Source: Lunularia cruciata (Eukaryota > Streptophyta > Marchantiopsida > Lunulariales > Lunulariaceae). Taken from it: a stretch of DNA of 64,000 bases. The stretch is taken from positions 5,089,001-5,153,000 of the forward strand of contig OX419755.1 of assembly GCA_948567375.1 (NCBI GenBank), read 5' to 3'. This document shows, in pieces, positions 19,905 through 59,396 of the stretch. Every line of letters starts with the position of its first letter. The stretch's first letter is position 1. The position numbers and the translations under genes are program-made. The notes beneath the pieces were generated by a model. The model did no database searches, was not told the origin of the DNA, and saw only the letters and a program-made list of their open reading frames with translations.

Positions 19905-20830
19905 TGTCATTGCCCAAAGCCAGCCCTTGAAATTTCTCCTTCCTTCCTATCCTATCACAGGCCATGATAAGCCTTCAAAAATTTCCCCTTTACTCTCTTC
20001 CTACAGTTCAAATCAAGCCAAACCCTCCTGACATTTCTCTCCTTGCTCCTGCACAGCCAAAGCTAGCCCTCAAAATTTCCCCTTCCTTCCTGTCCTATCA
20101 CAAGCCATGACAAGCATTCAAAAATTTCCCCTTTACTCTCTTCCTACAGTTCAGAGCAAGCCAAACCCTCCCAACATTTCTCTCCTTGCTCCTTTACAGC
20201 CAAAGCCAGCTCTCAAAATTTCCCCTTCCTTCTTGTCCTATCACAAGCCATGACGAGCCTCCAAAAATTTCCCCTTTACTCTCTTCCTACAGCTCAGATC
20301 AAGCCAAACCCTCCTGATATTTCTCTCCTTGCTCCTGCACAGCCAAAGCCAACCCTCAAAATTTCCCCTTCCTTCCTATCCTGTCACATGCCATGACAAG
20401 CCTTCAAAAATTTCCCCTTTACTCTCTTCCTACAGTTCAGATCAAGCCAAACCCTCTTGACATTTCTCTCCTTGCTCCTTCACAGCCAAAGCCAGCCCTT
20501 GAAATTTCCCCTTCCTTCTTGTCTTGTCATAGGCCATGACAAGCCTTCAAAATTTTCCCCTTTACTCTCTTCCTACAGTTAAGATCAAGCCAAACCCTCC
20601 CAACATTTCTCTCCTTGCTCCTACACAGCCAAAGCCAACCCTCAAAAATCTCCTTCCTGCCTATCCTATCACAGGCCATGACAAGCCTTTGAAGATTTCC
20701 CCTTTACTCTCTTCCTACATTTCAGATCAAGCCAAACCCTCCCGACATTTCTCTCCTTGCTCCTGCATAGCCAAAGCCAGCCCTCGGAAATCTCCTTCCT
20801 TCCTGTCCTGTCACAACCAAAAGGCCTTTC
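19905..20830. repeat. Tandem repeat, 143-bp unit, about 6.5 copies
   Basis: GCCATGACAAGCC-like text recurs at 19961, 20104, 20247, 20390, 20533 and 20675, an almost constant 143-bp period. Each unit contains TTTCCCCTTTACTCTCTTCC and AGCCAAAGCCAGCCCTC. Copies are roughly 90 percent alike by eye. The sequence is strongly pyrimidine-rich on this strand. Confidence 0.92.
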
Positions 20831-38889: not shown

Positions 38890-40500
38890 CTTGTGTTTGA
38901 AGAATAGAATCACCTTTACAATGCGCAAGTGTAGTGATGTCTGGTCAAGATGGTTTGAGACATTACCTTGAATATGAGTTCTGTCATGCCATTTGTAGTG
39001 TTATATCTAGATTACTCAGACATTAGAGTTGCATTGATAGTAGTAGAGGTATTTTAGCAATTTCCTATAGACTACTTTCTGATGGTCAGATTTTGTGTTT
39101 GAGGTATTGATTTCATGGTGGTGCCCACCATCACTTTGCACCATTTGCACCATCGAGTGTGCCATCAATGGGACCGTTAGGGTTCTAGACCTAGACCAAG
39201 TTTAGGGGTATACTTTTGCAGTATAGCTCTAGAGAGCTCACTTCTTTGATTTGAGCCTTTGAGTTCTTGGCTATGGTGGACAGAGGCCGAGGAGTGTCAC
39301 TTGGATTCTCTTAGCTAGAGTGGATGTGGCTTGACTATAGTTAGTGCTTAGTTGTTGGCAATTTATAGAGTGAAAGATAAAATACTGATCTAAGTTGAGT
39401 TGATTCAAGAATGTAAATGATCTGATTATATCAAAGAAGTGAAGTCAAAGGGAAATTGGTGCAAAAACTACAAGTGTTAGTGGTATCTCCAAGTGCAATG
39501 GATCTCTGGTAGCTTAATCAAAGTTCAAGTTTTCTCTGGTGTGCACAAGCTTGTTGCTTGATCTAGATTTAGCAATAAGGCACACTGTGTGTGGAAGTAG
39601 TGGCCAATTTTTGAGCAAAGAAGAACCAATTTTTAAGCAATGGTTGTGATTTTGAGCTCAAGAAGTGAAGACATAACCAATTTATTGTGAGTTGAACTTA
39701 GAAAGTAAAATTGAAGGTGGAGTTGGGAACTTATTCTCATGAATTTGTGATTTGGAAAAACATGTTAATTTAGTTTGGCTCGAGTGGAGAGTTAGCGGAG
39801 GATTTGGTGGTAAGCCAAATTTAGGATTTATATCAGATTTTTGCTAGAGTTTACGTCAAATTTTGGCCAGATTTGGAAGAGTTTTGCTAGATTTGGAGGA
39901 GTTTTGAAGTTGCAGATTTTGGTCATAGTTAGTGGAGTTTTGCTAGATTTGGATGAGTTTTGCCAAATTTAGATGAGGTTTGAAGTGGCAAGAAGAAAGG
40001 CCTCATTTGGCTAAATTTTGACATTTTGAGACTTTGAGGCATAAGGTTGTGGGCTATGAGAGGCTACAAAGGCCTAGAAGGGCTAGCTTGCTGGCGTGAG
40101 GCTAGCTAGTTTAGAGTAGATCTTGATCATTGTTTTGCAAAATCTGCCCATCCTACTAGATTGTGCGCAACAAGGTTTGACCCTTAGATCTCTTGTTCCT
40201 CAATTGGTGCCCTAGCCAATTGGTCCACCCTCACTTGTTGTCCTAGTGATTGGCCCACTATTATCTATACACTTGTAGCTTTGGCTAGGAGTGGCAGTTT
40301 GATTTCTTTCTTGGTGATCTTGGTAGCTTAGGACGTACATACAAACTTCTCTTATGTCAAATGCCAAATGGTTACAGACTCAATCTTGTGTTGCTTTATG
40401 AGATGGAGGTTTTTGTTTAGATTTCTTGTGATTGAACCTCCTCCATTCTCTACTTCCTATTTGTGCACCACATTTGTATAAGGTGCCCTAACTTTTAAGC
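38890..40500 (+). repeat. C2 5' LTR (boundaries approximate)
   Basis: Homology to the 3' LTR runs from about 38930 to 39400 and to C1 over most of its length. Both family C copies contain the tRNA-like segment, a poly-purine AAGAAGAAAGGCCTCATTTGGC block, and GTGCTCTAGTG just before the gag leader. The exact ends are not resolved. Confidence 0.65.
40165..40232 (-). other. tRNA-like segment in the C2 LTR
   Basis: The minus strand carries an A-box-like GGACCAATTGGCTAGGG (40210-40226) and a B-box-like GGGTCAAACC (40174-40183), in the same place as in C1. The B box is one base from consensus; the C1 copy is closer. Confidence 0.5.
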
Positions 40501-40898
40501 ATTGGTGCTCTAGTGTGCTCTCAATAGTAAGGCTAGAGTGATGACTAGTCAGACTACCCTTGTTTCTCTCCGGTGAGGCAAGAAGTGATGACCTATAGAC
40601 CGTGAGAGTGCGTGTTGTTATGGCAGGTTATAGGTTGCCCTTTCTCCTAGTGTAGTTAACTCAATCATAGTTATATTAATAGGTGGTGCTCCATGGGTAT
40701 TGGCACTTGGTGGTGCTCAGTTGGTGTTGGCTCTTGGTGGGGTACTTGCAGTTGCAATTTGTGGTTCTGATTTGCAATTCTGGTTGTGGTTACTTTGTCC
40801 CGATGGAGTTCATTGGGGACTCCAGAGGAGTTAGCCTTGCAATATGCAGTGGGTTTACTCAAAGTGGCACTTGGTATTAGCTTGTATCTCAAGTCCCA

Positions 40899-42360
40899 AT
40901 GAGGGAGGAGATTGACTCTGAGTTGGAATTTGACACAAGAGCTGATTCAATTGAGAGTGCACTTGGCGTGTTCACACCATTGTTGTGGGACATGGACAAG
41001 ATTTATGGGGTCTCCAAAGACCCTAAGTGTTACTTTGGTACAATGGGTATCATTGAGTTGGATGACTTCATCTAGGAGTTTGATGGTTAGTGTCATTTGC
41101 AACAGATGCGGAACCCGACTTTGTTTACATCCTTCATGGCATCAGAGGAGTTGTTTCAACATTTGGAGGGTCCGTTGATGAACGACTACCATGAGTTTAA
41201 CAAAGCTCATTTGGAGGAGATTGAGTTATGGAGACAATATTGTCTCTAAACTATATCTCTATCACTTTAGGCTCGGTTGCCAAGAGTAGATTGGTTGTAC
41301 CCATAAGTTCTAGCTCAAGTAGTGTTGGTGGAGCTAGTAGATGTGCACTAGTTGAATATAGTACTACCACAAGTGGAGGTACCACTGTAAGAGGTAGTGT
41401 GGTATTAGGGTTTAACCCCATGGTGGAGTTCTTTTAGTGTTTGAGGCAGAACTACCAAGGAGTGTGGATTGACAAGTTGAGGAGCTTGTAGGAGTTCCAA
41501 CAGAAGGTTAGAGAAAGCTTATGCAAGGCATACACTCGCATGAGATGGCTAATTGGTTTCACTCATGGAGTTATTAAGGCCCAAGCAGTCCAATTTTTGG
41601 TATGGGATATTGGACAAGGAGTTGCAATGTAGAGTTTGTGATGTCATGATGTTATATGCTACTTCGCCTACTTTAACAATGGTCTTTGGTTTGGCTGAGC
41701 CTATTGAGCTCAACATGGTGGAAGAGAGAGTAGTGATATCTGGATTTGGTAAGGAGACCTCATCTATTATAGCTATGACTTCTTCTAGAGTGCAGTAGAG
41801 TGCACCACATCCAATTGGTTTTTGAGGACAAGGTGGACAGCCCAGGTCCTATGGAGTGAGTGGAGGGTCTATTGTAGTTAGACCTTTACCTTCATTTTTG
41901 GGTCAATAGCAACCAGTGAGTAATGGTGTTGCTTGTTGGAGTTGTGATGGACCTCACCATAGGAGAGAGTGTACTCAAGGCAATGGACCTGATACCTCTG
42001 GTGCATCATAACCAACACAAAGGCAGTGTGAACATTGGAGTTGTGATGGACCTCACCATAGGAGAGAGTGTACTCAAGGCAATGGACCTGATACTTCTGG
42101 TGCATCAGAACCAACACAAAGGCAGTGTGAACATTGCCACACATTTGGTCACACTAGTGACCGGAGCTTTGACCTACACTCTGAGTTACAGAGTAGTAGG
42201 GTTGCTATGGCAGGTAGTAGAGGAGCTCCAATTCATGGAGGACAAGGTGGTGGTAGAGGATCTACACCTAGTAGAGGTGTGGTACCTGCCCTTACTTTTG
42301 AATATAGCCATCGCTACTTGGATTGAGTAGTTGGAGCAGAGATTAGCTAGTATGGCCATT
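40899..42360 (+). pseudogene. C2 gag with zinc knuckles
   Basis: A plausible start is ATG at 40899 (MREEIDSELEFDTRADSIES), followed by LLWDMDKIYGVSKDPKCYF and HLEGPLMNDYHEFNKAHLEE. Stops and frame changes follow. Near 41925-42170 two copies of a CWSCDGPHHRREC knuckle appear, then CEHCHTFGHTSDRS, where the last Cys is lost. The knuckle region is duplicated in tandem (99 bp). Gag would package the element RNA. This copy is not translatable end to end. Confidence 0.75.
41936..42133. repeat. 99-bp tandem duplication of the zinc-knuckle segment
   Basis: TTGGAGTTGTGATGGACCTC begins at 41936 and 42035. The copies are nearly identical and the period is a whole number of codons (33), so the frame is kept and the protein would gain a second knuckle. 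Confidence 0.93.
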
Positions 42361-42942
42361 GTGCAGAGGAGATCAAATTTGGATGTTGAAGCTTCCATCT
42401 CATATGTTGGTGATAAAGATGCTTTGGACTTCATGTGCAGAGAAGCATAGGTGGATGCATTTGCAATAATGACTAGGAGTGCAATTTGTGCTCCAGAGCC
42501 TAGAGAAGCATTAGTGGAGTTGGACCCATAGAGAGGAGAGGTTTGGAGATAGGTCAGACTTCCCCAATCTTTCACACTATTTGAGGCATTATAGACAACA
42601 TCCATGGCTCCTAGACATCCCAATACAGGTGTGGTAGGTGGTAATGTGGTGCATGATGGACTACCTACTAGTCAACCACCAACTACTACATAGACTAAGT
42701 CTAGCATGATGTTAGGGGCGGCTCAACTGATTATGCGGTGCCCTTTATTTTCAGCCAATGACATATGTACATTGGGAGTTGACCCAACCCCAATGTTCCG
42801 GTTGGCTGCCATGCTTTGTGAGAGTAGGGATTATGTGGTTCCTACTACTAGAGCAAAGGTGGTTGATAGTGGAGCTAACTAGGTTGAGGAGCATGGGATC
42901 TGTTCAACAACCAATGGTTTATGGCAAGCAACAACGGCTAGA

Positions 42943-43170
42943 TTGGAGAAGTTGCCAACTAGACCGGCCTTTGAGAGAGCATGGTTCACACCTGGTGTTG
43001 TCCTATTGGATAACCAAAGAAGGTCTTTTTGTTTGGTGGGACCTTTAGGGAAGGTCTATACACCACAGAGAGTCTTGTTAGACTCTGGTGTGCAGCCCTT
43101 TGTGTTGGAGAAGGTTGCAATAGTCAAGCTGGAGTTACAAAAGACCAATGTGGAGAGGTGTCTAATTTAG
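42943..43170 (+). pseudogene. C2 aspartic protease
   Basis: An open stretch of 75 codons. It contains RVLLDSGVQPFVLEK, with the retropepsin active-site triad DSG, preceded by the hydrophobic strand VLL and followed by an EKVAIVKLELQ helix-like stretch, as in Ty3/gypsy proteases. It lies just upstream of the linker leading to the methyltransferase. Downstream text LVGGAVLYPMGF (about 43318-43353) is likely the end of the protease fold (ILG-like box). Confidence 0.78.
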
Positions 43171-43784
43171 ATCTAGACATCTCTAGGTGGTGGTTCAACA
43201 CAATACATCACACGTGGAGAGCTAGTTGTTCAGCTTCAGCCCAATCATCCAATTGATAGCTCGGTGATGAGAGCTTAGGCTATTGCAACAATACTTGAGT
43301 CATACGATGTGCTAGTTGGGGGAGCAGTATTATACCCCATGGGTTTCAACATTGATTATTGAGAGTCCCCTATAGACCAAGTTGGTAGATTGGTGAGAGA
43401 CGGGTATGTTGCCTACCAATACATTTCAATAGCTGCAATCTTGGCTCATTATAGTTTGGGACCATGGCAGCATCAATTTCAGCTTTCAATGGTGTAGTTA
43501 CTTGGCCTGGTGACTTGTTGGAGAGGAACGCACATGTAGAGGATACTTCAATACTAGAGAAGATCACTTGGATTTGGAGTACAAGTAGGATTTTTCCATC
43601 CACCTTGGATGTTTTATTGTGGAGTTCAGAGGAGGCATTGCAGCATCATACAGATCAATTGGTGCAACAAGCTTAGAGTGGAGCCTTCGTACCATCAGGA
43701 GATGAGTGTGAGGATGAGTCTCCAAAGTTGATTACCTTGACACCTCTAGATACCACACTCATTTCTTGGCAATATCCAATAGAG
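43171..43784 (+). pseudogene. C2 protease-methyltransferase linker
   Basis: Readable pieces include VLVGGAVLYPMGFNIDY and SAFNGVVTWPGDLLERN (43464-43676 is open for 70 codons). The second piece has no domain I recognise but looks conserved in style: aromatic, with GVVTWPGDLL. It probably belongs to the same polyprotein, between protease and methyltransferase. Confidence 0.5.
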
Positions 43785-44770
43785 GTGATATGTCTATTGG
43801 AGTTGTTTGGTGGGATTAGCACCGGACTAGCTACGGTATTACAAGCAGATATACGAGTACAAATATACTTGTATATGAGAGAGATGAGACTTGTATGTAT
43901 GTGGAGAGAGATGAGACTGCTAGGCAAGTCTCTCTATATCATGTGGCACACTTGGCCTATTGGTATTCAGAGTTATTGCCAATGTCAACAGTTAGGGGTT
44001 ACCAAAAGGCCCTATCAACAGACATTTCCTTATTGGGGGCGCATGATTTGGAGAGACATGGACATGTTCACTTGGTGATTTCTGGATGGCCATGTTAGGG
44101 ACATGTACGTGATGGTCAAGGTTTGGGTCTTTAGGATCCTCATTTTGGTGTGTTTTGGGAGATGTTACAACAACATCTCCAAGTTCATCAGTTTGTTTCT
44201 CCAACTTACATTTTGGAGAACACTCTTTTGATGGGTGATTCTTGTACCTGGGTAGTGGTAAGTTCACATTAGGTCCATTCTTGGATGGAACTTGTTGTAT
44301 TGTTAGATGCAGCCAGAGTAGGATCACAAGCTCATTGTCTTTGTCTTTGGTAGATGAACCTCTTACCCAAAGAGGTTTTATAGCGTGCTTATGATGGGAT
44401 TCATTGACTTGACCACATCCTATTGATGACATCTTGGATGTTGGGTGTTAGTCTCAGATAGTGGTAATGGTTGATATGTCACCTATAGAAGTGGTGAATA
44501 GATAGTCTAGAGTCGCATTTCTTGCACTCATGAGTCTCCCAAACTCTCATGCTTTTTGAGAAGGAGAACCTAGACTTATTTGGGACTCACCGTTATAGCA
44601 ATTAGTGGAGCTCAATGCTGATGAGAAAGAGTGAGTAATGTGTTTTTGCACCGGTATTACTGCTATTCCAATAGTGTTAGAGGTATCTAGGCATCATGTG
44701 TTAGGTCAGGCTATGGACTTGAATTGTTTGACCTGGATTGTGAGTTTTGGCTTGGCAAAGAAGCATAGAA
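43785..44770 (+). pseudogene. C5-cytosine DNA methyltransferase domain inside retrotransposon C2
   Basis: About 330 residues with the standard motif order of C5 methyltransferases. Motif I (SAM binding) is LELFGGISTGLATVL at 43797 on. A frame change near 43872-43900 is followed by YVERDETARQVS (motif II-like acidic residue) and DISLLGAHDL (motif III-like). Motif IV is HLVISGWPC (catalytic Cys at 44093-44095), where the next codon, usually Gln or Asn, is TAG. DPHFGVFWEML follows, then motif VI YILENT (44207-44224). Motif VIII-like VLLDAARVGSQAHC has R-to-C-type changes. Motif IX/X is CTGIT then LGQAMDLNCLTWIVSFGLA (about 44700-44757). The fold resembles DNMT3/DRM-like enzymes more than Dcm, by eye. 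It sits between protease and RT of C2, in the same orientation. Several TAG/TGA codons kill this copy. Confidence 0.87.
43877..43917. repeat. 27-bp tandem duplication in the methyltransferase
   Basis: GAGAGAGATGAGAC occurs at 43877 and 43904 within two copies of a TAT(G)TGGAGAGAGATGAGACT unit. The first copy also lacks one base, which explains the change of reading frame between motif I and the VERDET segment. Confidence 0.85.
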
Positions 44771-45190
44771 TGCGCTTGATATGCATCGCCACTTGTACAC
44801 TTGTGGGCCTTGTGCCTATTGAGACAATTTAGGCACATGCTGGAGGCAATGGACCGACTGGATAGGCTATTCTTGGGATACAATCAATGGCTACTAGGGA
44901 GAGTGGTCTACTTGGAGTCCATCCAAGTGAGTGTGGTCTACTTGGATTACACCCTTGGTCTACTTGGGATGCAACTAGAGGACGTATGGAGCTTGCAGCT
45001 AGATCATAGAGAGTTTTTCACACAAAGGTTGGGACCTCTAGTAGTTGGGTGCATGACACTATTGCTCCCAAGGGGCCAATGTAGTAGCCCGTCACCATGT
45101 CTTTCACTCCTACTATAGTTATAGAGGATACTTGGGAGCCTGTTCTTGGACCCAAGCTTATAGGAGAAGAAAGACAAAGGGTTTAGAGGT
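44771..45190 (+). pseudogene. C2 linker between methyltransferase and RT
   Basis: No domain recognised. The stretch after LAKKHRMRL is open in one frame (44801-45118) but that text is Leu-rich and frame choice is uncertain. A small internal repeat (GTGGTCTACTTGGA near 44901-44946) is present. It leads into RSYTNCFTFNMKDLGALKGLG, the start of RT. Confidence 0.4.
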
Positions 45191-45904
45191 TCTTGAGGAG
45201 CTACACAAATTGTTTTACCTTCAATATGAAGGATTTGGGTGCTTTGAAAGGACTTGGTATACGGATTGAGCTAATTAGCAAAACACTAGTTTTTTTATGT
45301 CTAGTTTTATCGCTATAGTGACATGGAGAGGATATTGATTCAGAGCCAGAGTAGAGACCTTTTTGAGGTTGGTTTGGTGGAGATCTCACAAGGAGAGTTT
45401 GCATCAACTACAATGATGCTAGCCAAGAAGGATATGCATGGAAACTACATAAATAGGCAGATGTATGGAGATTATCGTCCTATCAACCGATAGATTAGGG
45501 CTGATTGGTATACAATGCCTACATTGAAGGAGATTTTTGATATGATTGGGCATGTAAAGGTCTTCAATACTTTGGATCATTGAGCAAGATATCATCAATT
45601 GCCGATTAGAGAGGAGGAAAGTCCAAGACATCATTTTGGGCTAAATCACAGCAAGGATGTGTTAAATCAATGGATGTTCTTACTATTTGGGTTAAAGAAC
45701 ACTCTTGCCAAGTTCCGAAGGGTCATGGATAGGATCTTAGCTAGATTGGATTTTGCTCGGTGCTATATTGATGACATTTTGGTCTATAGCTCTACTATGG
45801 AGGAGCATGAGAGACAGTTGTTGGAGGTGTTTGAGAGGTTGAGATCTCATGGACTCAAATTACATCTTGGAGATTTTTCCATGAGCAAGTTGAGTATTTG
45901 GATC
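45190..45904 (+). pseudogene. C2 reverse transcriptase, N-terminal part
   Basis: Readable order: NMKDLGALKGLGIRIEL; KKDMHGNYINRQMYGDYRPI (45425 on); HQLPIREEE; GLKNTLAKFRRVMDRIL; and the catalytic box CYIDDILVYSST (YIDD at 45764-45775). The order and spacing are those of a Ty3/gypsy RT. The text is cut at 45904 by D and resumes at 53734 as HTIYPGGFGV. Stops occur before 45600. Confidence 0.88.
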
Positions 45905-46596
45905 TGTGAGCCGGCCTGTCTCTCACTCAAGATGAACCTCTGATGGCTATTATGGTAGCGCACCATGGACTAAGAAGGCAAGGAACCCCAACTCCATCAT
46001 ACTCCTCCAAGGCTAACACTCCAAGACTCAAGACATTGCTCACTAGAGAACTCAATGAGAGAGAGATAGTTGCAAATGAAAGGATGATGAGTACCTCCTC
46101 ACTCCTTGTTTATATACTTGTGAAATAGTTACGTACCAAAGTTACTAATTACCGTAGTAACTCAAGTTACTAGACTAAAAGTCAAGTAAAGTCAAAAAGT
46201 AGAAAGGAATATCCATTCACATGGGCATATTCCCCTAAGCATGTGGTCTTATCTTGACCCAACCACTAAAGCAAGGATTCCTTCACATGGGCTATCCTTG
46301 GACTAAAGAAGAATCCAAAACAAAAAGGCTTGCGGGCCCAAGAGTTCTCAACTCTTTCCCCAAAGCCAAACACCTAGGAATAATACCAAGTCAACACACT
46401 AAAATCCAAAATAGTGGTGCTCATCTTTTCTACTTCCTCTAAAGTAAGGTCCCATCTATCTTAGCTATGACTAACTTTAGCTAACCATGACTAATATAGA
46501 ACCATCCTTTATCTCTATATAAATAATATCTCTTAAGTACTTGTAATACCAAGCTAAATATCACAATACCACACACATGCACAAATGGGTGTTACA
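45905..46596 (-). repeat. D 3' LTR
   Basis: 692 bp, printed ends TGTGAGCCGG and GGGTGTTACA. In sense it carries a TATA box (TATATAAAC, printed near 46108-46120) and a run of GTTACT/AGTAAC inverted motifs upstream. Small open frames in it (61-62 codons) repeat identically in the other LTR and are not genes. Confidence 0.97.
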
Positions 46597-46641
46597 TTTA
46601 CCCCCGGACTAAGTTTTCACTTTGTCCTCAAAGAGAAGGTC

Positions 46642-49600
46642 TCTCTACCTTCTATGGTACATCTTCAACTTATCATGGTTAATCCTATCAAAGTGTCTTC
46701 CTCCCAACTCCTTGAGATCATAAGTGTAATTTCCCCACACCTTCTCTACTATGAAAGGTCCAAAGTACTTAGGCAAAAACTTCTTTTTTACTCTCTTGAA
46801 TCGAATGGAATCAAACAACATTACCCAATCACCTTCTTTGAAAGGCTCCACCTTCTTCTTGCCTTGCCTCTTGTCATAGCTCTCCTTTTGTTTCCTTTGG
46901 GCTTGCTCCACTCGAACCATAGCAACTGCTCTTGCCTCTTCCAACTCCATGAGTTGATCCTTCCTTGACTTCTCTGCATCACTTCCTTGTGCTTTCTTCA
47001 ATCTCCTATGAATGCTTTGGAAGGTAGGAAGATCAAAGTGAATAGGTAAGGTAGACTCAATACCATACACCAATTGGAATGGAGAATATCCAGTGGAAGT
47101 CTTCATGGTTGTCCTATACTCTCACAAAACTGCATGAATCCTCTTGTCCCAATGATGTTTAGCCCCCTCCATTTCTGCATCTTTGGCCAACATCATGCAC
47201 AAGGTCTGATTGGTTCTCTCTGCCAAGCCATTGGAATTTGGCTTATAGGATGTAGTTACTCTATGTGTGATAGAGAAATGTCGTAGCATGGTTGTAGTAA
47301 TGCTTCCTGTAAACTCTCCTCCTCTATCAGAAACCAACTCCAAAGGGCATCCAAACCTAGTGATAATGCGTTCATAAAGAAATCTACCCACTTCATCTTC
47401 ATTCTTGTCCCTCAATGGTCTAGCCTCAACCCACTTGGTAAGGTAATCAGTAACTACCACAATGTACCGATTGTTCCTTGGGGTTCTATTGAGAGGTCCT
47501 ACAAAATCAATTCCCCACTTCTCAAAGGGTCCTAGCAATGGAATTGATCTAAGTGGTGGAGTGGATGTAGACTTTCTAGCAAAAGCTTGACAAACATGAC
47601 AAGTTTTGCAATAATCAAGACAATCCTTGAAAATCCCTCTCCAATGGTAACCTGCATCTAGAATCTTGAAAGCAGTCACCTTTCCTGCAAAGTGTCCTCC
47701 ACATACTAAACCTTCATGAAACTCCTTTATGAGTAGGATAGACTCTTCCTTACCCACTGCTCTTCGAAGTAGACCATCTGCTCCTTGGTGAAAAAGAATA
47801 TCATCCACCATTGTGTAAGGTCTAGATCTTGCTGCAAGGGCCTTCCTCTCCCTAGCATGCATCCCTTCTGGATAGTTACCTCTTGTCACAAAATCCACAA
47901 TCTCCTTGTACTCCATTGGAACCTCTTGAGTGACTGAGATTGTCATGAGCTCCTCATCCGGGAAGGAATCATCTACTGGCTCATCTCCATCATGATCATA
48001 GGCTCTAGATAACAAATCAGCATTTGCATGTTTCTTTCCTGGCCTATCCTCAATTGTGTAGTCATACTCAGACAAGAGAATCATCCACCTTGCTAGTCTC
48101 CCTTCAACATTAGGCTTGTTGAAGATGTACTTCAAAGCCTTGTGATCCGTGACAATTGTGGCTTTCCCTCCAATCAAGTAGTGTCTAAACTTCTTGAGAC
48201 CAAAGATCACTGCCAACCCTTCTCTCTCTGTGACAGAGTAGTTCTTCTCTGCTGAAACCATCTGCCTACTAGCATAAGCTATTGGATGATCATGCCCATC
48301 TTGGTCTAATTGACTAAGAGTGCATCCTATAGCTACATTAGAAGCATCAGTGTAGAGGATGAAAGGCTTACTCCAATCAGGTTTAGCAAGAATTGGAGCT
48401 ACAACAAGGGATTGCTTGAGCTCCTCAAAAGCTTTGAGAGCCTCCTTGTCTTCCAAAATCACCATGTAATCTACACCCTTCTTCATGTAGATGGTCAATG
48501 CATAAGCCTTGTTGGAAAATGAGAAGATGAACCTCCTATAGTACCCAACCATTCCCAAGAATTGGCGTAACTTTGTCAAGCTTGAAGGGAATGGAAGGTC
48601 TGAGATTTTCCTCACCTTCTCAGGATCAACTGCTATTCCATCCTTGGAGATGATGTGCCCCAAAAGTAGACCTTCTTCACATCCAAAAATGCACTTCTCT
48701 GGGTTGAGTGATGCATTTGCCTCATCCAAGCGTTGCAAGACTTTGATTAGGTGCTCAAAGTGCTCCTCCTTGCTCCCATAGACACAAAAGTCATCAATGA
48801 AATCTCTCACAAATTTCCCAATGAAAGGTTCAAATACCTTGTTCATGAACCGTTGGAATGTGGCTGGAGCATTGCAAAGCCCAAAAGGCATGACCTTGAA
48901 AGCATAAGTTCCCCAAGGTGTGGTGAATGTGGTGAGTTGTTGATGCTCTGGTGCAATCTTGATTTGGTTATATCCACTATAACCATCTCCAAAACTGTAC
49001 CTCTCATGACCTGCAACCTCCTCCAAGATCTCATCAATGAATGGCAATGGGTAGTAGTCCTTCTTGGTAACAGCATTGAGCTTCTTGTAATCCACACATA
49101 CCCGAAGCTTGCCATTCTTTTTCTTCACAATGACAATTGGAGACACCCATTCTGAATTCTCCACCTCAAAGATAAATCCAGCCTCCTTGAGCTTATCAAT
49201 CTCCTCCTTCACAACCAAAGATATTGGTGGGCTAATGCGACGTTGCTTTTGGCGGATTGGTCTTGCATGTGACTCCACCTCTATCTTGTGCTCCTCCAAG
49301 GTGACTTCCTTCAAATCCTTGTAACTAAAAGCAAACACATGGATGAACTTGCGGAAAATCTCCTCAAATCTCACCTTCTCCTCCTTGGTAACATTTGGGC
49401 CATACTTGAGGGTAGATAACCTTCTCTCTACCTCCTCAAGTGTCAATGGTGATTTATCTGGGTCCTTCAAAACCTCTGGCTTAGGTGCAAAATCCATAGC
49501 ACACAAAGGATACACATCTGAATCAGATTCAGATTCATCCTCCTCCGTGGAAGTCTCCTCTTCCATGCTTGTGTCCACACCTGAAGCTCCTCCTTCAGAA

Positions 49601-49845
49601 TCAAATTCCCAATAATCAGAAGATGGGGTATCTGAATGTGAAGTGTTGGTGGTGTTAGTCACAGGAACAGTGACTCTATGGTTTGATGGCCCAATCCTTA
49701 AGTACCCTTTGTGCCATCGATCAGTTGTGCGTGTTGCTCTCAACCATGGCCTCCCAAGAAGTAAGTCATAGCTTGAATCCTTCAAGACTTGGAAAGTCAT
49801 GAGATTTTGAACTCCCATAACTGAAACTACCACCTTATCCATCAC
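46642..49845 (-). pseudogene. D pol: protease end, RT, RNase H, integrase
   Basis: This continues the gag frame. The protease tail reads YDLLLGRPWL. RT shows VCVDYKKLNAVTKKDYYPLP, the Tat/Athila-like FGDGYSGYNQI, and catalytic FIDDF (48801-48787). RNase H shows LYTDASNVAIGC, TDHKALKYIF and ANADLLSR. Integrase shows the HHCC segment (HEGLVCGGHF, CKTCHVC), KWGIDFVGPL, VSDRGGEF and NSNGLAERTNQTL, so D, D and E are all present. The frame stops at TGA (47124-47122) inside the integrase C-terminal part, where relatives have Trp (L-W-E-Y-R-T-T context). It then continues open in the same frame from 47121 to 46642 (YSPFQLVYGIES, FKEGDWVMLF). Except for this TGA and one at 49857, all catalytic residues look intact. 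Confidence 0.93.
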
Positions 49846-49854
49846 TCCTACTGG

Positions 49855-51471
49855 TCAAACTTGTTGCTTGTTTGCCATGCTCACCACAAATGTTGAAGCT
49901 CTTGAGGGTATCATACCCAACTTCTTCATCAACCTTTCTGACATGGCATTCACTGCTGATCCTCCATCAACCAATGCATCCTTGATGTTGTGACCATTCA
50001 CTCTCACATCAATCTTGGAGGCATATTCACAAGCTTCCCATGGTGCTGGCTTGGCATCCACCACCCCCATTGATATTGGAACTTTTGCCTTCTTCTTCTT
50101 CTTGCTCCTTGTAGAACTCAAACCACCTCTAAGCTCCTTTCTCAAGGTAGGGTTCAAAGCAATTAATTGGCCCACTGTGATGTTAGCCTTGTGACTACCA
50201 ACATCCTCCAACACATTGTAGTTCCATTGTTGCTTGGAGATCAAGAAGTCCTCCATCCCCAACTTCTTCCTTGGAGTCTTTGTTGTTGATGGTGTTGAGG
50301 TGCGAGTGCTCCTAGTAGACATAGGAGTATCCTTGCTTGAAGTAAATCCTTGAGAAGAGTGAACATCCTCTGCAAAACGAGCTCTCTTCTTCTCTTGTGC
50401 CAAAAGCTCCAAATTAGGACCCTTGGAGTTTGAGCACTCTCCCTTCTCATACTTGCTCTCAACCACATCTATGGATGCTATCCCCTTACCTTTGTTGGGA
50501 TTAGGAGCCACTTGGGTTTCACTACCTCCCTCTTTCCCTCTATTGGCTCCCTCATAACCCCTTCCTCCATGGTAAGTGGAATTTGGGCAATTCCTTTGGA
50601 TATGGCCTCTTCCCCCACAACCAAAACAATTTCTATCATTGAAATTGTTGGCTGGTTGGCCTCCTCTATATGGATGGTTTCCATAACTCCTAGGCCCTCT
50701 CTCTACATTCTGATCCACCTCTCTCTTCTCCCATAATTGCACCACATTGATCTTGAGATCCGCAAGTTGTTCTGTGATGGTTTGGAGTGGATCTTTTGGT
50801 GGAGGTGCAAGAACTGGAGCAACTACTACTTGTGGTGCAACCCTTGTCACCAAAGTATCAGAAGTTCCACCATACTTGTAGCCTTGAGGAGGATGCACAA
50901 CCTCCTTCACCACCAAATCACTTTCATCCCCTTCCAAACTCTCCTCCATACAAATTGCGATCTTGATAGCTTCAACCTTGGAAGAAGGTTTCTCATATCT
51001 CACCTTGCTTCTAATTTGTGGTCTCAATCCTCCCACAAAATTCTTGGTGAGCATGGCCCCTATGCCAATCATTGTAGTCTCCACATCATCCCCACCCTTC
51101 CTCAACACTATGCGAAATCTGGACTCCAATTTTTCCACTCTTTCCACATAGACTCTCACTTTCTCTCCATCTCCTTGCTTGAGAAATGTAACCTCACTCA
51201 TCAATCTCTCATAACTCTCATCAGGAAGAAAGTTCTCAATGAGTGCTGAAGTCAAAGTCTCCCAAGACTCCTCTTCCCCCTCTCTCCTCTCTCTCTTTTG
51301 GTATTCTGACTCATACCATGTAAGTGCTGCATCCTCAAAGAAATCTGGTAATAATGAGGCCCACTCATTCTTCCTCCTCTCATTGTTTCCTATGCAAGCT
51401 CTCTTGAAGTCTCTCACAAAGGCCTCCACATCTTCTCCATCCTTGCCAAAGAAAACCGGAAGTTTCCCCAT
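49855..51471 (-). CDS. D gag with zinc knuckle and start of protease
   Basis: 538 codons from ATG (51471-51469). The N-terminal gag domain includes FFGKDGEDVEAFVRDFK and ALTWYESEYQKRE, then IENFLPDESYERLMSEVTFL, the usual plant gypsy gag core. The CCHC knuckle CFGCGGRGHIQRNC lies at 50628-50587 (about residue 282). The end reads DALVDGGSAVNAMSERLMKK, where DGG stands at the retropepsin active site (usually DTG/DSG). The frame then meets TGA at 49857-49855 and continues open in the same frame as pol. CGA-to-TGA change, or stop readthrough, could explain this. It starts 237 bp downstream of the extra ORF. Confidence 0.9.
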   Translation of the reverse strand: MGKLPVFFGKDGEDVEAFVRDFKRACIGNNERRKNEWASLLPDFFEDAALTWYESEYQKRERREGEEESWETLTSALIENFLPDESYERLMSEVTFLKQGDGEKVRVYVERVEKLESRFRIVLRKGGDDVETTMIGIGAMLTKNFVGGLRPQIRSKVRYEKPSSKVEAIKIAICMEESLEGDESDLVVKEVVHPPQGYKYGGTSDTLVTRVAPQVVVAPVLAPPPKDPLQTITEQLADLKINVVQLWEKREVDQNVERGPRSYGNHPYRGGQPANNFNDRNCFGCGGRGHIQRNCPNSTYHGGRGYEGANRGKEGGSETQVAPNPNKGKGIASIDVVESKYEKGECSNSKGPNLELLAQEKKRARFAEDVHSSQGFTSSKDTPMSTRSTRTSTPSTTKTPRKKLGMEDFLISKQQWNYNVLEDVGSHKANITVGQLIALNPTLRKELRGGLSSTRSKKKKKAKVPISMGVVDAKPAPWEACEYASKIDVRVNGHNIKDALVDGGSAVNAMSERLMKKLGMIPSRASTFVVSMANKQQV

Positions 51472-51707
51472 CTTAACCCCTCACTATCTTTCTTTTCTCT
51501 CAATTTTTTTTTTCCTCTTTTCTTTTCTCTCACTCTATTACTAATAGAGTATATACATGACTAACACCATCTGAGAATAATCCACTCTAGGGAACACAAA
51601 AGGTTCAGGTTGCTCCAAGATTTCTATAGCAACATCAAATCCTAGAGTGCATATTAATCTAACTCTCATGGATAGTTTATCCATAAGTTGAAAGATTATC
51701 TCCATCA

Positions 51708-52205
51708 CTAATCTTGAGAACTAGCTGATGAAGGTGGTAGTATTTCTGTAGCTGTACTAAGACTCTCTCCAAGATCCTTCACCAAAGTTTCCAAAAGTGC
51801 TTTTACTCCACTACACTCATGTCCTTTTGGAAGTCCTTCAACTCCACAAACCTCACACAACTCTTTGGTCTTAGATCTTCTCCCTCCCAATCTTGGTGAA
51901 GAAGGTCCAACATGCAAACCCAAGTCAAGTAAGCCTCTCCTTTCCCTCAATCTCTTGCTCTCAAAGGTCAATGGACATGAACTTGCCTTATGTCCCTTCT
52001 CTCCACATAGAAAGCACTTAGACTCACTCTTTCCTCCAAGTGGTGTAGGTTTTTGGATCCTCTCAACACTCTCTTCAAATTCTATTGTAAACTCTCTTTT
52101 CCTCAAATCCACCCCTACAATCACCTCAAACCCTTGGGGAACCTTGCATAATCTCAATTTCCACTCTTGATGACTCTCCATGTTCCCCAAGATGAATCTA
52201 AACAC
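51708..52205 (-). CDS. Extra zinc-knuckle ORF between D 5' LTR and gag
   Basis: 165 codons. A CCHC knuckle, CFLCGEKGHKASSC, is followed by an Arg/Ser-rich stretch and a second Cys/His cluster, CEVCGVEGLPKGHEC. It resembles nucleic-acid-binding knuckles and is distinct from the gag knuckle at 50628. In-frame text upstream (DLMHEKFEINKKHV, TGA, VFRFIL) suggests the ORF was longer and has lost its N-terminus. Another frame at 52342-52154 reads KCAKFQKTVTYWLGDLNDIV, possibly the original start. The function is unknown: a captured cellular fragment or an element-specific accessory protein. Translation in D is not proven. Confidence 0.65.
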   Translation of the reverse strand: MFRFILGNMESHQEWKLRLCKVPQGFEVIVGVDLRKREFTIEFEESVERIQKPTPLGGKSESKCFLCGEKGHKASSCPLTFESKRLRERRGLLDLGLHVGPSSPRLGGRRSKTKELCEVCGVEGLPKGHECSGVKALLETLVKDLGESLSTATEILPPSSASSQD

Positions 52206-53020
52206 TCAAACATGCTTTTTGTTGATCTCAAACTTCTCATGCATGAGATCTCCACTCTGCAGAATTGACCCTTCCTCACAATGTCATTCAAATCTCCCAA
52301 CCAATACGTCACAGTCTTCTGAAATTTTGCACACTTGATCACAACTCCAGGGCGTCTCTCCCTGCAAAATTTCAGATCTTTTCATTGAGCCATTTGGCCT
52401 AGACACCTTTCTATTCAGCACCCATATTTCAGATTTGGTCTGAAAACCACCCCCCTCACTTCAAAAACTCATCACGCCTTGCGCAAAAACGATCTCTCTC
52501 TAATTTTTGTGGCAGCAGGTAGGATACAATGCACTGAATTTTCTTGGAAATTTTTAGGACAATTCACTGAAAATTGAAGAAATGGCAGACTCTGTACAAT
52601 TTTCCAGAGAGCATGCAGTTGCGGGAGCACTTTACCCTATCAACTTTCAAAAATTCTAGCCCAGTGCGCATAGAAGCTCTCTCAATAATTTCAAGTGTGC
52701 TAACTGAAAGATAACCCAAGCTATCATGTGTAGAAATCTCAAGTCCAGATCTCAAACTTGAGATTTTGCCCAAAATCACCTTAATCCCCAAAATCTGCAA
52801 TCCACCTCACACAATCTCTCCAATTCCTCTCATGTGTACAAGATGTACAAAATCACCTCAAAGACATCATAATGAACTACAGGGTATACAAATGGATCTT
52901 GGTTCTCTAACATAAGTTCAGCCCTCTCCTCTCCTAATGTTCTCTCCAAGTGAGCTCTCATAGCCTCCTTCTGCCTAATGTAGAATTGGACGCGGAACAT
53001 TATCTTGCCTTCTAGAGAGG
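52206..53020 (-). other. D 5' leader
   Basis: A non-coding leader between primer-binding site and the extra ORF. It contains short open pieces (52342-52154, 52800-52564, 53063-52830) that overlap other frames. The 52342 piece may be the lost N-terminus of the extra ORF. I see no other feature. Confidence 0.5.
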
Positions 53021-53037
53021 TCCCGGCAACGGAACCA
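53021..53037 (-). other. D primer-binding site (tRNA-Asp-like)
   Basis: The sense strand after the LTR end GGCTCACA and a TTTT spacer reads TGGTTCCGTTGCCGGGA. It differs by two or three bases from the tRNA-Asp primer site TGGCGCCGTTGCCGGGG used by many plant Tat/Athila-type elements. Confidence 0.75.
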
Positions 53038-53041
53038 AAAA

Positions 53042-53733
53042 TGTGAGCCGGCCTGTCTCTCACTCAAGATGAACCTCTGATGGCTATTATGGTAGCGCAC
53101 CATGGACTAAGAAGGCAAGGAACCCCAACTCCATCATACTCCTCCAAGGCTAACACTCCAAGACTCAAGACATTGCTCACTAGAGAACTCAATGAGAGAG
53201 AGATAGTTGCAAATGAAAGGATGATGAGTACCTCCTCACTCCTTGTTTATATACTTGTGAAATAGTTACGTACCAAAGTTACTAATTACCGTAGTAACTC
53301 AAGTTACTAGACTAAAAGTCAAGTAAAGTCAAAAAGTAGAAAGGAATATCCATTCACATGGGCATATTCCCCTAAGCATGTGGTCTTATCTTGACCCAAC
53401 CACTAAAGCAAGGATTCCTTCACATGGGCTATCCTTGGACTAAAGAAGAATCCAAAACAAAAAGGCTTGCGGGCCCAAGAGTTCTCAACTCTTTCCCCAA
53501 AGCCAAACACCTAGGAATAATACCAAGTCAACACACTAAAATCCAAAATAGTGGTGCTCATCTTTTCTACTTCCTCTAAAGTAAGGTCCCATCTATCTTA
53601 GCTATGACTAACTTTAGCTAACCATGACTAATATAGAACCATCCTTTATCTCTATATAAATAATATCTCTTAAGTACTTGTAATACCAAGCTAAATATCA
53701 CAATACCACACACATGCACAAATGGGTGTTACA
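53042..53733 (-). repeat. D 5' LTR
   Basis: Same length as 45905-46596, and no difference seen when read in parallel. It ends at GTTACA before the second GATC. Confidence 0.97.
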
Positions 53734-54420
53734 GATCACACTATCTACCCTGGAGGATTTGGTGTTTAGCAGACCAAGGTGGAGGCTATTGCACATATTC
53801 CTTGGCCTATGAATGTGAGTAGAGTGCAAGCATTCCTTGGGTTGGTGAACTTCTATTGCCAGTATGTTAGAGGATTTAGTGTCATTGCCAAGGCCTTGAC
53901 GAAGTTGACCAAGCTTACACAAGAGTGGTGTTGGGGAGATGAGCAGGAAAGAGCTTTTGTAGAGCTCAAGGAGAGGTTGATATCTGCTCCTATTTTGAGG
54001 AGACCGATCAGAGGATGACTATTTTAGGTTCATACTGATTGGAATATGTTGGGGCTTGGAGCAGTGCTCACCCAGCATGATGATGAGGGGAAGGAGTTTG
54101 TGGTGGCCTATGCTAGTCGCTCCAACAATTCAATGGAGGTGAAGTATAGTTCATATGAAGAAGAATGCTTGGCAACACTTTGGGCAGTAGTACATTTTTG
54201 ATATTACCTATTTGGTAACCACTTCACTCTCATCATTGATCATCAGCTGTTGAAATGGTTGATGGAGTCCGACAAGCTTTCAAGGAAGCTTGCACCATGG
54301 ACTTTGATTGTATAGGAGTATGATTTCAAGGTTATTCACATATCTAGAGTGATGAACCGTGATATGGATGGGTTGAGTAGAACCCATGTTCCAACCAGCA
54401 GGATCAGACCGGAGCACGTT
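53734..54420 (+). pseudogene. C2 RT C-terminus and RNase H
   Basis: After D the text continues HTIYPGGFGV, then VSRVQAFLGLVNFYCQYVRG, the connection domain typical of gypsy RT. RNase H follows: [40 protein letters not shown] and IDHQLLKWLMESDKLSRKLA. This ends with DMDGLSR (54361-54381), the usual RNase H tail. Stops at 54019 and elsewhere. Confidence 0.88.
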
Positions 54421-54739
54421 GGCATGGTGAGACAGATGAGGAGATGGTGCCAGGGTGGCATGCATTGGCCTTTCTGTGTATATTTTTTGAGGCTTTGGTG
54501 GTATATCTCTCTGTGTATACAGGAGGAGTTATTGAGGTCGCAGATCCAGATAGTGAAGATATTAGTACAGTTCAGCGAGACATTCATGGTGATGTCTTAG
54601 TGATGGATTGTCTTTGCACTTGTGTTGTAGGTGGCACAATTGGGGCAAAGGAGAGAGATAGTGTCCTTTAGCAAGCCAAACAATTCAAATTGGAGGGCAG
54701 ACACCTTTGCATGTATGGGAGGATGGTAGAGTGTGAGTA

Positions 54740-55640
54740 GTACCACTTCCATCTCAAAGACCACAGTTGGTCCGTCATGCTCATGAGGAGCTATGACATT
54801 TTGGAGTAAAGCGTACATATAGCTTACTTCAGAGTCATTATTGGTGGCATGGTATGCAGACTGGGGTACAACAATTTGTTGCCAGATGTGTGGTATGTGA
54901 CCGAGTTAGAGCATCATTCAATAATCTTATGCCATAGTTACACCCATCACCTATCATGGGATTGGGCTACCATTGGAGTTTGGACTTTTCTGGACCTTTA
55001 TTGCTGATTGTGAAACATCATTGGTATGTTTTGGTGATGGTGGAGCACTTCTCCAAGTACATTGAGTTGGTGGCACTTTCTGACAAGTCTAGTGAAGGGA
55101 CCGTCTATTTGTTCATAAGATTTTGACTGATTAGGGTATAAAGTTCTTGGGGGAGTTTCAGATCTTGTGTGACAAGGCTTTGATTGATCATTGTACTACC
55201 TCCCAAGATCACCTTGATGTAGATGGCTTAGCAGAGAGAGTGGTCCAAAGGGAGAAAAAAGGATTGCAAAAATATGGTTTGCAAAGAGGCCACTTGGGAG
55301 ATTAGGTTCTCCAATTACCTTGGTTGGCCATGGGCTATTGGTTCAGCCAGCAAGCCTCTTTAGCATTCTTCTCTCCTTACTTTCTACTCTATAGATGAGA
55401 CCCAAATTTACCTATAGCCATTCGTCGAGATGTTACAATAGTTTTGGACTTGGATGATCCAGATGTATGGATGAGTGCATGTTCTCAATGGGCAGAGATC
55501 TTTCAAAGAGTGATGCCGATGGACTTTGAGAACTTGGTGATTGCTCAGCATAAAGATACCTTACACTATACTACCATTCAAGGAGGAGGTTATAGACCTT
55601 CAATCCATCGATTTCATCCAAGAGACTATGTGTATCTATA
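54740..55640 (+). pseudogene. C2 integrase
   Basis: The zinc-binding HHCC segment is at about 54776-54903: HAHEEL, stop, HFGVKRTYSLLQ, then CVVCDRVR. The catalytic core begins YHWSLDFSGPL (Asp at about 54983) and continues MVEHFSKYIELVALSDKS. The second and third acidic sites are in heavily mutated text (55150-55260). The C-terminal part at 55444-55641 is open (VIAQHKDTLHYTTIQGGGY). It would insert element DNA but is non-functional here. Confidence 0.8.
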
Positions 55641-55653
55641 GCATAAAGCACCG

Positions 55654-55985
55654 ATGACACTTGATTTTTTGATAGGCTACACTATCTTGAGAGTGCATGA
55701 GGTTTTGCCATTTGGAGTCCTTGTGTTGGAAGGACGTGATGGTATTGTTTGGAAAGATCATGTGCACAATTGTGGGCCATGTCACCTCCCAAACATTGAT
55801 AGTACTATGGACCCAAGCTTGGCACTTGTACGTGTAAGCTTGAGGTGTATGTTATGTGGCTCTTCTGGTGGAGTTGCTACTATGTTAGTGTGTGATAGTT
55901 GTTCAAGAGGATAGCATATGGCATGTATGACTCATCTCCTCACGATGGTTTCTTAGGGATAGTGGTTATATCCTAGATGTACTTG
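55654..55985 (+). pseudogene. C2 C-terminal tail with PHD finger
   Basis: The tail reads VLVLEGRDGIVWKDHVHN, CGPCHLPNIDSTMDPSLA and then CMLCGSSGGVATMLVCDSC (55846-55902), SRG, stop, HMAC, ending WLYPRCT. Spacing C-x2-C, C-x2-C, x4-H-x2-C, W-x-C-x2-C fits the C4HC3 PHD pattern. Two changes spoil it: a stop before the His and Tyr where the seventh Cys should be (a TGT-to-TAT change). PHD fingers bind histone H3 tails. Here it replaces the chromodomain found in families A and B. It lies directly after the integrase C-terminus. Confidence 0.82.
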
Positions 55986-56153
55986 ACGTACAACTAGTTC
56001 ATTTTTTATATGGTATAGATCGCAGACAGACGACTAACAATGAGGCTACGTAGCACTTGATCTGTTGATCTTTGCCTATCATAGGGTACACCATATATTT
56101 AGAATAGATGGCTATTTGGAGTTAGAGAGACCTAATCGTCAACTAGGGGCGAT

Positions 56154-56800
56154 TGTAACACTTTAGAATCTATGAATGATTTATGTGTGAGTTGTACTTC
56201 TATAATGTATGATATTGATAGCAATGTATATTGTGTAACAACATATATACGCATGACAATTTTCATACCATTTGTAGTGTCACATTTAGATTACTCCAAC
56301 ACTAGAGTTGTAATGATAATAGTTAGAGGTATTTCAACCATTTCCCATAGATTATTTTTTGACAATCAGATTTCGTGTTTGGGATAGTGACTTCAAGGTG
56401 AGGCTCATCGTCACTTTGTACCATTCGTATAGTCAAGTGTATCGTCAATGAGACCGTTAAACTTTCAAACTTAGTTTGAATCCAAGGGTATACTTTTGAA
56501 ATTCAATTACAGAGAGTTCAATTTTTTGACATTGAATCTTTGAGTTTTTGGTTATGGTAGACGGAGATCAACGAATGTCATCTATATTTTCTTAGTTAGA
56601 ATGGATATGACTTAAGTATAATTGATATTTACTTATTTATAATATATAAAATAATAAATTAAATATTAATTTAAACAAATTGATCAAATTTATAATTATT
56701 TTAATTATTTTAAAATCTATATATAATTTACATATAAGTTATACATATATAATATATAATATTGACAATGATATATGATATATATATAACAAATATATTG
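56154..56800 (+). repeat. C2 3' LTR, truncated
   Basis: It begins TGTAACACTTTAG after GGGGCGAT. It aligns with 38930-39400 through the GTAGTGTCACATTTAGATTACTCC and GTATACTTTTGAAATTCAATTACAG stretches. The last part (56580-56780) is AT-rich with many C-to-T changes. It should be about 1.6 kb; the rest, including the tRNA-like segment, is missing. Confidence 0.75.
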
Positions 56801-58687: not shown

Positions 58688-59396
58688 TGTAACATCCATT
58701 TGTGCATGTGTGTGGTATTGTGATATTTAGCTTGGTATTACAAGTATTTAAGAGATATTATTTATATAGAGATATTGTTTATATAGAGATAAAGGATGGT
58801 TCTATATTAGTCATGGTTAGCTAAAGTTAGTCATAGCTAAGATAGCGGGGACTTTACTTTAGAGGAAGTAGAAAAGATGAGCACCACTATTTTGGATTTT
58901 AGTGTGTTGACTTGGTATTATTCCTAGGTGTTTGGCTTTGAGGAAAGAGTTGAGAACTCTTGGGCCCGCAAGCCTTTTTGTTTTGGATTCTTCTTTAGTC
59001 CAAGGATAGCCCATGTGAAGGAATCCTTGACTTAGTGGTTGGGTCAAGATAAGACCACATGCTTAGGGCAATATGCCCATGTGAATGGATATTCCTTTCT
59101 ACTTTTTGACTTTACTTGACTTTTAGTCTAGTAACTTGAGTTACTACGGTAATTAGTAACTTTGGTTTGTAACTATTTCACAAGTATATAAACAAGGGGT
59201 GAGGAGTTACTCATCATCCTTTCATTTGCAACTATCTCTCTCTCATTGAGTTCTCTAGTGAGCAATGTCTTGAGTCTTGGAGTGTTAGCCTTGGAGGAGT
59301 ATGATGGAGTTGGGGTTCCTTGCCTTCTTAGTCCATGGTGTGCTACCATAATAGCCATCAGAGGTTCATCCTGAGTGAGAGAAAGGCCGGCTCACA
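58688..59396 (+). mobile_element. Family D solo LTR
   Basis: 709 bp, ends TGTAACATCC and GGCTCACA, flanked by the 4-bp duplication GCTC (58684-58687, 59397-59400). It is the sense orientation of the D LTR. It differs from the D LTRs by several substitutions and a roughly 18-bp tandem repeat of TTTATATAGAGATA (58760-58795), so it is older. A TATA box (TATATAAAC) lies at 59186-59194. It is inserted in the Penelope-like element. Confidence 0.95.

Follow-up and report, generated by a model that had tools for sequence, protein, structure and literature searches.

A Ty3/gypsy-type retrotransposon family with a DNMT3-type methyltransferase in the liverwort Lunularia cruciata

The closest described system is KnitGypsy-Dnmt3 of the green alga Klebsormidium nitens, for which DNMT3-bearing Gypsy elements with split repeats have already been published (de Mendoza et al, 2018, PMC5890265). 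The Fig 4 legend of that paper ascribes to the K. nitens elements the layout A-coding region-B-A-B, which has been described for DIRS elements, and the acquisition of the methyltransferase (MTase) was inferred to have taken place in the K. nitens lineage (PMC5890265). Two Symbiodinium elements, SymbioDIRS-Dnmt3 and SymbioLINE-Dnmt, likewise carry C5-cytosine MTases (PMC5890265). SymbioDIRS enzymes methylate CG in yeast, and the Klebsormidium domain gave no methylation there, an outcome called inconclusive by the authors (PMC5890265). A 2025 paper places some DNMT3 members in retrotransposons, namely LTR Copia and DIRS, and refers to earlier reports from streptophytes and dinoflagellates (PMC12344493). 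The accessible text of PMC6453930, PMC9246332 and PMC6338049 contains nothing on retroelement MTases of this kind, and searches of the open-licence literature yielded no report of a land-plant case or of a PHD finger in such an element.

Here we describe C2, an element in a 64,000-nucleotide stretch of the L. cruciata genome (the window; contig OX419755.1, positions 5,089,001 to 5,153,000). C2, an old and dead copy, belongs to a Ty3/gypsy-type retrotransposon family that has split direct repeats and a high copy number; the family forms a land-plant branch of KnitGypsy-Dnmt3, the type already published. Like KnitGypsy-Dnmt3, it has a DNMT3-type MTase with normal motif order within the Gypsy Pol region, DIRS-like split repeats and purifying selection (PMC5890265); its MTase forms a clade with that of K. 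nitens KFL_009030040 (P0100, equated with KnitGypsy-Dnmt3 by content), whose RT to integrase part is collinear with C2. Unlike KnitGypsy-Dnmt3, it occurs in land plants, has a fixed and probably leaky UAG, and reaches over a thousand junction sites in one genome. It also has a PHD finger behind the integrase; the term PHD is absent from the main text of PMC5890265, and P0100 ends too early to show one. SymbioDIRS resembles the family in its DNMT3 type and A-coding-B-A-B repeats but has a tyrosine recombinase in place of the DDE integrase found here, and SymbioLINE is a LINE, unlike the gypsy-type family (PMC5890265).

Anatomy of the C2 element

C2 extends from about position 38981 to 56670 on the forward strand and, without a nested insert, has the domain order Gag, protease (PR), MTase, reverse transcriptase (RT), RNase H, integrase (IN) and PHD finger, all on that strand. 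At its left end stands a 5′ A repeat (38981-39428; 81% identical to its counterpart in a young copy). The decayed Gag region (41016-42330, right end approximate) was recognised by tblastn with Sphagnum P0089 and Marchantia P0062, whose pieces fall within 41016-42224, and the aspartic protease (42943-43359) by tblastn with Sphagnum P0007 and by its DSG motif (43075-43098). The broken DNMT3-type C5 MTase (43767-44775) is followed by a TAG (45082-45084) where, between MTase and RT, the family has its fixed in-frame stop; the bases after it are decayed in C2. The first part of the RT (45308-45904, YIDD at 45764-45781) was found by tblastn and by Pfam RVT_1 (7e-13 on 45584-45943). Behind a nested insertion follow the end of the RT with RNase H (53734-54707; tblastn with Marchantia P0054), an integrase with H2C2 and DDE core (54713-55458; tblastn with P0094 and P0100) and a PHD finger (55846-55980; Marchantia P0116), which lies above the Pfam cut-off despite internal stops (30.2 versus 24 bits). 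The 3′ end consists of a B repeat (56152-56258; 83% to B of the young copy) and a diverged A repeat (56263-56670; 68% to A of the young copy); a terminal B repeat of C2 was not found, and the whole window contains a single B match.

C2 aligns to one young copy over 3089, 3912 and 2926 bases at 82-86% identity and is thus an old member of the same family. Its A repeats were not used for dating because the 3′ A is odd, being 68% identical to the young A as against 82-86% in the long C2 stretches. C2 is collinear with Klebsormidium P0100 (RNase H-integrase E 2e-117, RT 3e-27, MTase pieces 2e-8 and 3e-6) and, from integrase to PHD, with Marchantia P0116 (65% over 283 residues, 55135-55983). An Rfam search gave no match, and the pattern TGGTATCAGAGC, which we take to be that of a primer-binding site, was not enriched (seven found versus 5.2 expected from shuffles).

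The nested insertion, which interrupts the RT of C2, is a gypsy element on the reverse strand (45905-53733), separate from the MTase element, with identical 692-bp LTRs (45905-46596 and 53042-53733) and a flanking GATC on both sides. Its long open frames encode 910 and 541 aa, and an extra frame with a CCHC zinc knuckle (51708-52205) lies between its 5′ LTR and gag; another LTR of its family, on the opposite strand and 95% identical, lies at 58688-59403. The window also contains C1 (13528-15211 and 35443-36555), a more diverged relative of C2 that is split by other elements and 70-73% identical to the young copy, and a tandem array at 19914-20819 with a step of about 143 bases and copies about 90% alike.

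The first-pass annotation had reported C5-MTase motifs in the canonical order on one strand, with PR upstream and RT (YIDD) downstream. This arrangement was confirmed, with the motifs spread over three forward-strand frames: LELFGGISTG (43797-43826) in frame 3; SGWPC (44078-44104), YILEN (44207-44221) and DAARVGSQAH (44306-44335) in frame 2; and LGQAMDLN (44701-44724) in frame 1. Of the support that a C5-MTase profile was expected to give, none came from the separate C2 pieces, which had no Pfam match, while intact relatives match the stretch 43767-44775 strongly by tblastn (E down to 9e-89, best single piece 181 bits; the best score in 100 dinucleotide shuffles of the window was 30.8 bits). 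The stretch has 10 in-frame stops, a count leaving out those at 44392 and 44410, which sit at a frame change, and at least two frame changes. Several of the stops replace a Gln, Trp or Arg of the relatives, which fits C-to-T change; the pattern is unspecific, because CpG is depleted across the whole window (observed/expected 0.24; 0.19 and 0.31 in two C2 parts, 0.14 in the young nested element). The earlier reading of the element thus stood, and to it are added the broken state of C2, the PHD finger, the probably leaky stop and the split repeats.

Genomic copies, selection and the fixed UAG

A PF00145 profile search of the L. cruciata genome (565,766,749 bases, 74 contigs) gave 123 scored matches from 2161 first-look candidates, host genes included, and many of the matches have long open frames. 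Twenty copies were fetched for their MTase and picked by long open frames; they are therefore no random sample. All 20 have the order PR-MTase-RT-RNase H-IN, and 19 have a PHD finger 3′ of the integrase, the exception (L022) being cut within the integrase. For a sample free of MTase bias, 10 copies were taken at even ranks from 150 listed RT-only hits, and 500 bases per copy were viewed. Nine of the 10 have the MTase at the expected place, four of them with stops or a frame change within the 500 bases; the remaining one (L055, G000:C1:46468394-46468893) has at this place DNA unlike any of the 20 fetched copies. The same genome has host MTase genes, of which two are DNMT3-like (L002 and L005), one is a DRM (L003) and one is an unplaced C5 MTase (L004).

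Complete copies begin at the 5′ end with an A repeat about 450 bp long and finish at the 3′ end with B (about 108 bp), A and B. This A-coding-B-A-B layout is present in the complete young copies; C2 shows A, B, A. Both ends were located in 14 of the 20 copies; all 14 have TG...CA termini, and 11 of them have an exact 4-bp target duplication. The A repeats are 88-99.8% identical within 16 copies and at least 96% identical in 13 of these (L016, L022, L026 and L027 gave no usable pair), which points to recent movement. The C2 family is young and common in the L. cruciata genome. This bears on self-limitation, a role in which the MTase would methylate the element's own chromosomal LTR-like repeats, with low transposition and long coexistence as the outcome. 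It is one of the options proposed by de Mendoza et al (PMC5890265), and the window is CpG-poor as in a methylated genome, but unspecifically with regard to the C2 family. Against it, the copies are many and young and hosts silence elements without such help; we regard self-limitation as unlikely.

The MTase domain is under purifying selection. Among the L. cruciata copies its dN/dS amounts to 0.40 in 10 stop-free copies (jackknife s.e. 0.06) and to 0.43 in 18 copies with stops skipped; its odds are 0.61 against a null that preserves base and CG/CHG context; pairs are non-independent, and decay after insertion dilutes the signal. The corresponding values are 0.35/0.26 for RT, 0.36/0.33 for RNase H, 0.33/0.38 for the PHD finger and 0.35/0.35 for the C-terminal part of the integrase, and PR has a dN/dS of 0.19. 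For the N-terminal part of the integrase (0.58/0.65, s.e. 0.31), no constraint was seen against the context null (odds 1.2). The first-pass annotation had called for a test of constraint on the MTase and of its intactness in other copies: the test of constraint included 10 stop-free copies, and four of the nine RT-picked MTase copies have stops or a frame change.

Selection could also act on something other than catalysis, if the MTase had little catalytic power and were retained because it binds DNA or RNA or serves as a structural part linked to Gag. The lack of methylation by the Klebsormidium domain in yeast (PMC5890265) would agree with this, as would the faster change of the MTase: between species of the Klebsormidium group, identity is 72-79% for the MTase versus 84-93% for the RT. 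In the 80 fetched domains, however, the catalytic Cys is present in 75 of the 76 that have a residue there, the motif VI Glu in 79 of 80, and the motif VIII Arg is nearly invariant; we consider a weak enzyme improbable.

A TAG stands at one position between MTase and RT in 20 of 20 copies, and the reading frame continues beyond it into the RT. Of the 1711 codons read, 68 positions have a stop in at least one copy; the next most shared stop is present in four of 18 copies, and 50 are confined to single copies. When the junction was searched with a free codon and exactly matching flanks, the genome gave 1144 exact sites, of which 1105 have TAG and 39 another codon; the pattern read backward gave 0 sites. 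The first 100 listed sites comprise 96 TAG and four TAA. CAG-CCA or CAG-CTA follows the TAG in 19 of 20 copies (L012 has CAG-CTT), so that these 19 match UAG-CAR-YYA, the motif at which tobamoviruses show type I readthrough (Firth and Brierley, 2012, PMC3542737). The stop codon and the six next bases are thus shared with tobamoviruses, and here the motif sits between the MTase and RT of a retrotransposon; in the table of the same review, gamma- and epsilonretroviruses stand under type III readthrough (PMC3542737). At the protein level, relatives from Calypogeia, Sphagnum and others end shortly 3′ of the MTase, and some Marchantia gene models continue into the RT; the stop may therefore not be universal. 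From the fixed codon and its context, we consider it probable that the UAG is read through, and the likely products would be Gag-PR-MTase and, via readthrough, the full polyprotein.

Relatives, enzyme type and the PHD finger

A one-frame reading of the C-terminal half of the C2 MTase retrieved 47 proteins, among them ones from Riccia sorocarpa, Sphagnum jensenii, Calypogeia fissa, Marchantia paleacea and M. polymorpha. Two further protein searches (68 and 105 hits, the latter scoring only the 8000 candidates that shared most words) added Sphagnum troendelagicum, S. fallax, S. tenellum and K. nitens KFL_009030040. No hornwort, fern or seed plant appeared among the organism-labelled protein matches, which are a minority of the matches in a search that needs shared exact words. 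Other genome contigs gave no relative, and viral contigs one distant locus (L001; 39%, query residues 2-58).

In an unrooted tree with four non-retroelement rows (host or human), 17 retroelement MTases form a single clade (100/100), which cannot be rooted because there are only four such rows. The K. nitens MTase falls within this clade in a different subclade from the bryophyte rows, and the tree gave no sign of host DNMT3 as a recent donor. The tree speaks for the reading of the first-pass annotation in that the retroelement enzymes, Klebsormidium included, stand apart from host DNMT3 and DRM. An RT tree of 16 rows, in which two further gypsy elements from the window served as outgroups, grouped the MTase-bearing elements weakly, at 91/96. 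By profile and by fold, DNMT3 is nearest to the family MTase. Its motifs I to X are in normal order, and those of the host DRM (L003) are rearranged, so it is not of the DRM type; likewise, relatives have Integrase_H2C2 and rve, and the L. cruciata copies mostly have the 4-bp target duplication, which separates the family from DIRS elements with a tyrosine recombinase instead of a DDE integrase.

Layouts vary among the relatives. P0110-P0112 show MTase-IN-PHD, P0114 and P0115 show MTase-RT-RH-IN-PHD, and in P0106 and P0107 the MTase follows RNase H and precedes the integrase; judged from this position, it has either moved within the polyprotein or been taken up again. With relatives among liverworts and peat mosses and in the green alga Klebsormidium, the MTase-carrying family looks like a long-lived lineage and no accident. 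Taken on its own, the window, with one broken MTase copy and a C1 in which no MTase was found, might suggest that a host MTase pseudogene had landed by chance in a single element. The genome copies and the relatives in other species refute this, and the host DNMT3 and DRM genes lie outside the retroelement clade; the probability left to such an accident is negligible. A retroelement lineage with its own MTase, as first proposed from the window, is borne out by the 20 of 20 fetched and nine of 10 RT-picked copies, by purifying selection and by the relatives, and we hold the anatomy and lineage of the family to be practically certain. The shared clade suggests an origin older than, or shared beyond, the K. 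nitens lineage.

Among 12 proteins with an integrase match, seven have at least 180 residues beyond the integrase, and the other five end too early. Six of these seven have a C4HC3 PHD finger; the tail of P0094 is Cys-rich but divergent and gives no Pfam PHD match. The nearest fingers in the PDB include those of AIRE, CHD4, DPF3, PHF12, KDM5B and PHF21A, several of which are readers of unmodified H3. At the position that we take to be the cage tryptophan of K4me3 readers, all six PHD proteins have Gly or Ala, and C2 has Gly. The arrangement differs from DNMT3A and DNMT3B in that the MTase is part of a Gag-Pol polyprotein and the PHD finger lies far downstream, in place of the ADD domain that adjoins the MTase in those enzymes; a PWWP domain, unlike in DNMT3A/3B, was not found in the family.

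Possible roles and implications

In the explanation that we somewhat favour as a whole, C2 is a dead member of an MTase-carrying family that combines readthrough, cDNA methylation and PHD-guided insertion. Most ribosomes would stop at the UAG between MTase and RT, and the MTase would therefore be synthesised together with Gag and enter particles in roughly capsid amounts, with a minority of readthrough events adding RT, integrase and PHD finger. Inside the particle, the MTase would encounter double-stranded cDNA and methylate it, and the new copy would integrate already methylated. Methylation of cDNA has also been suggested by de Mendoza et al (PMC5890265); that cDNA is the main substrate seems to us a nearly even proposition.

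The MTase might instead act in trans, on host loci or rival elements or by disturbing host silencing, more than on its own cDNA. It would be abundant if made with Gag, more than a thousand junction sites are present in the genome, and the protease could release free enzyme. In the retroelement proteins seen with RT or IN, however, the MTase stays within the polyprotein and is therefore tied to the particle, which makes predominant action in trans rather unlikely.

For the particle-bound enzyme of the favoured explanation, the PHD finger of the integrase would bind H3 tails without K4 methylation and guide insertion to silent chromatin. Such steering is possible, though we would not count on it. 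New copies would be silenced upon arrival and would burden the host little. Animal DNMT3 enzymes pair a reader of H3K4me0 with a de novo MTase, and MTase and PHD finger together would repeat this pairing within a mobile element. More tentatively still, the lineage may be older than the split between Klebsormidium and bryophytes, or have been passed between them, and may pair capsid-level supply of the enzyme, set by a leaky stop like that of tobamoviruses, with PHD-guided insertion into heterochromatin, as a self-silencing parasite whose new copies arrive methylated.

Transposons rank among the main targets of DNA methylation, and an abundant transposon with its own DNMT3-type enzyme reverses the usual story. 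The earlier green case was one alga with few copies; here there are young copies besides the many junction sites, and the shared clade calls into question an independent acquisition of the MTase element by Klebsormidium. The putatively leaky UAG predicts the amount of enzyme, the PHD finger predicts the landing sites of copies and, since relatives occur in the model liverwort Marchantia, the role of the enzyme is directly testable.
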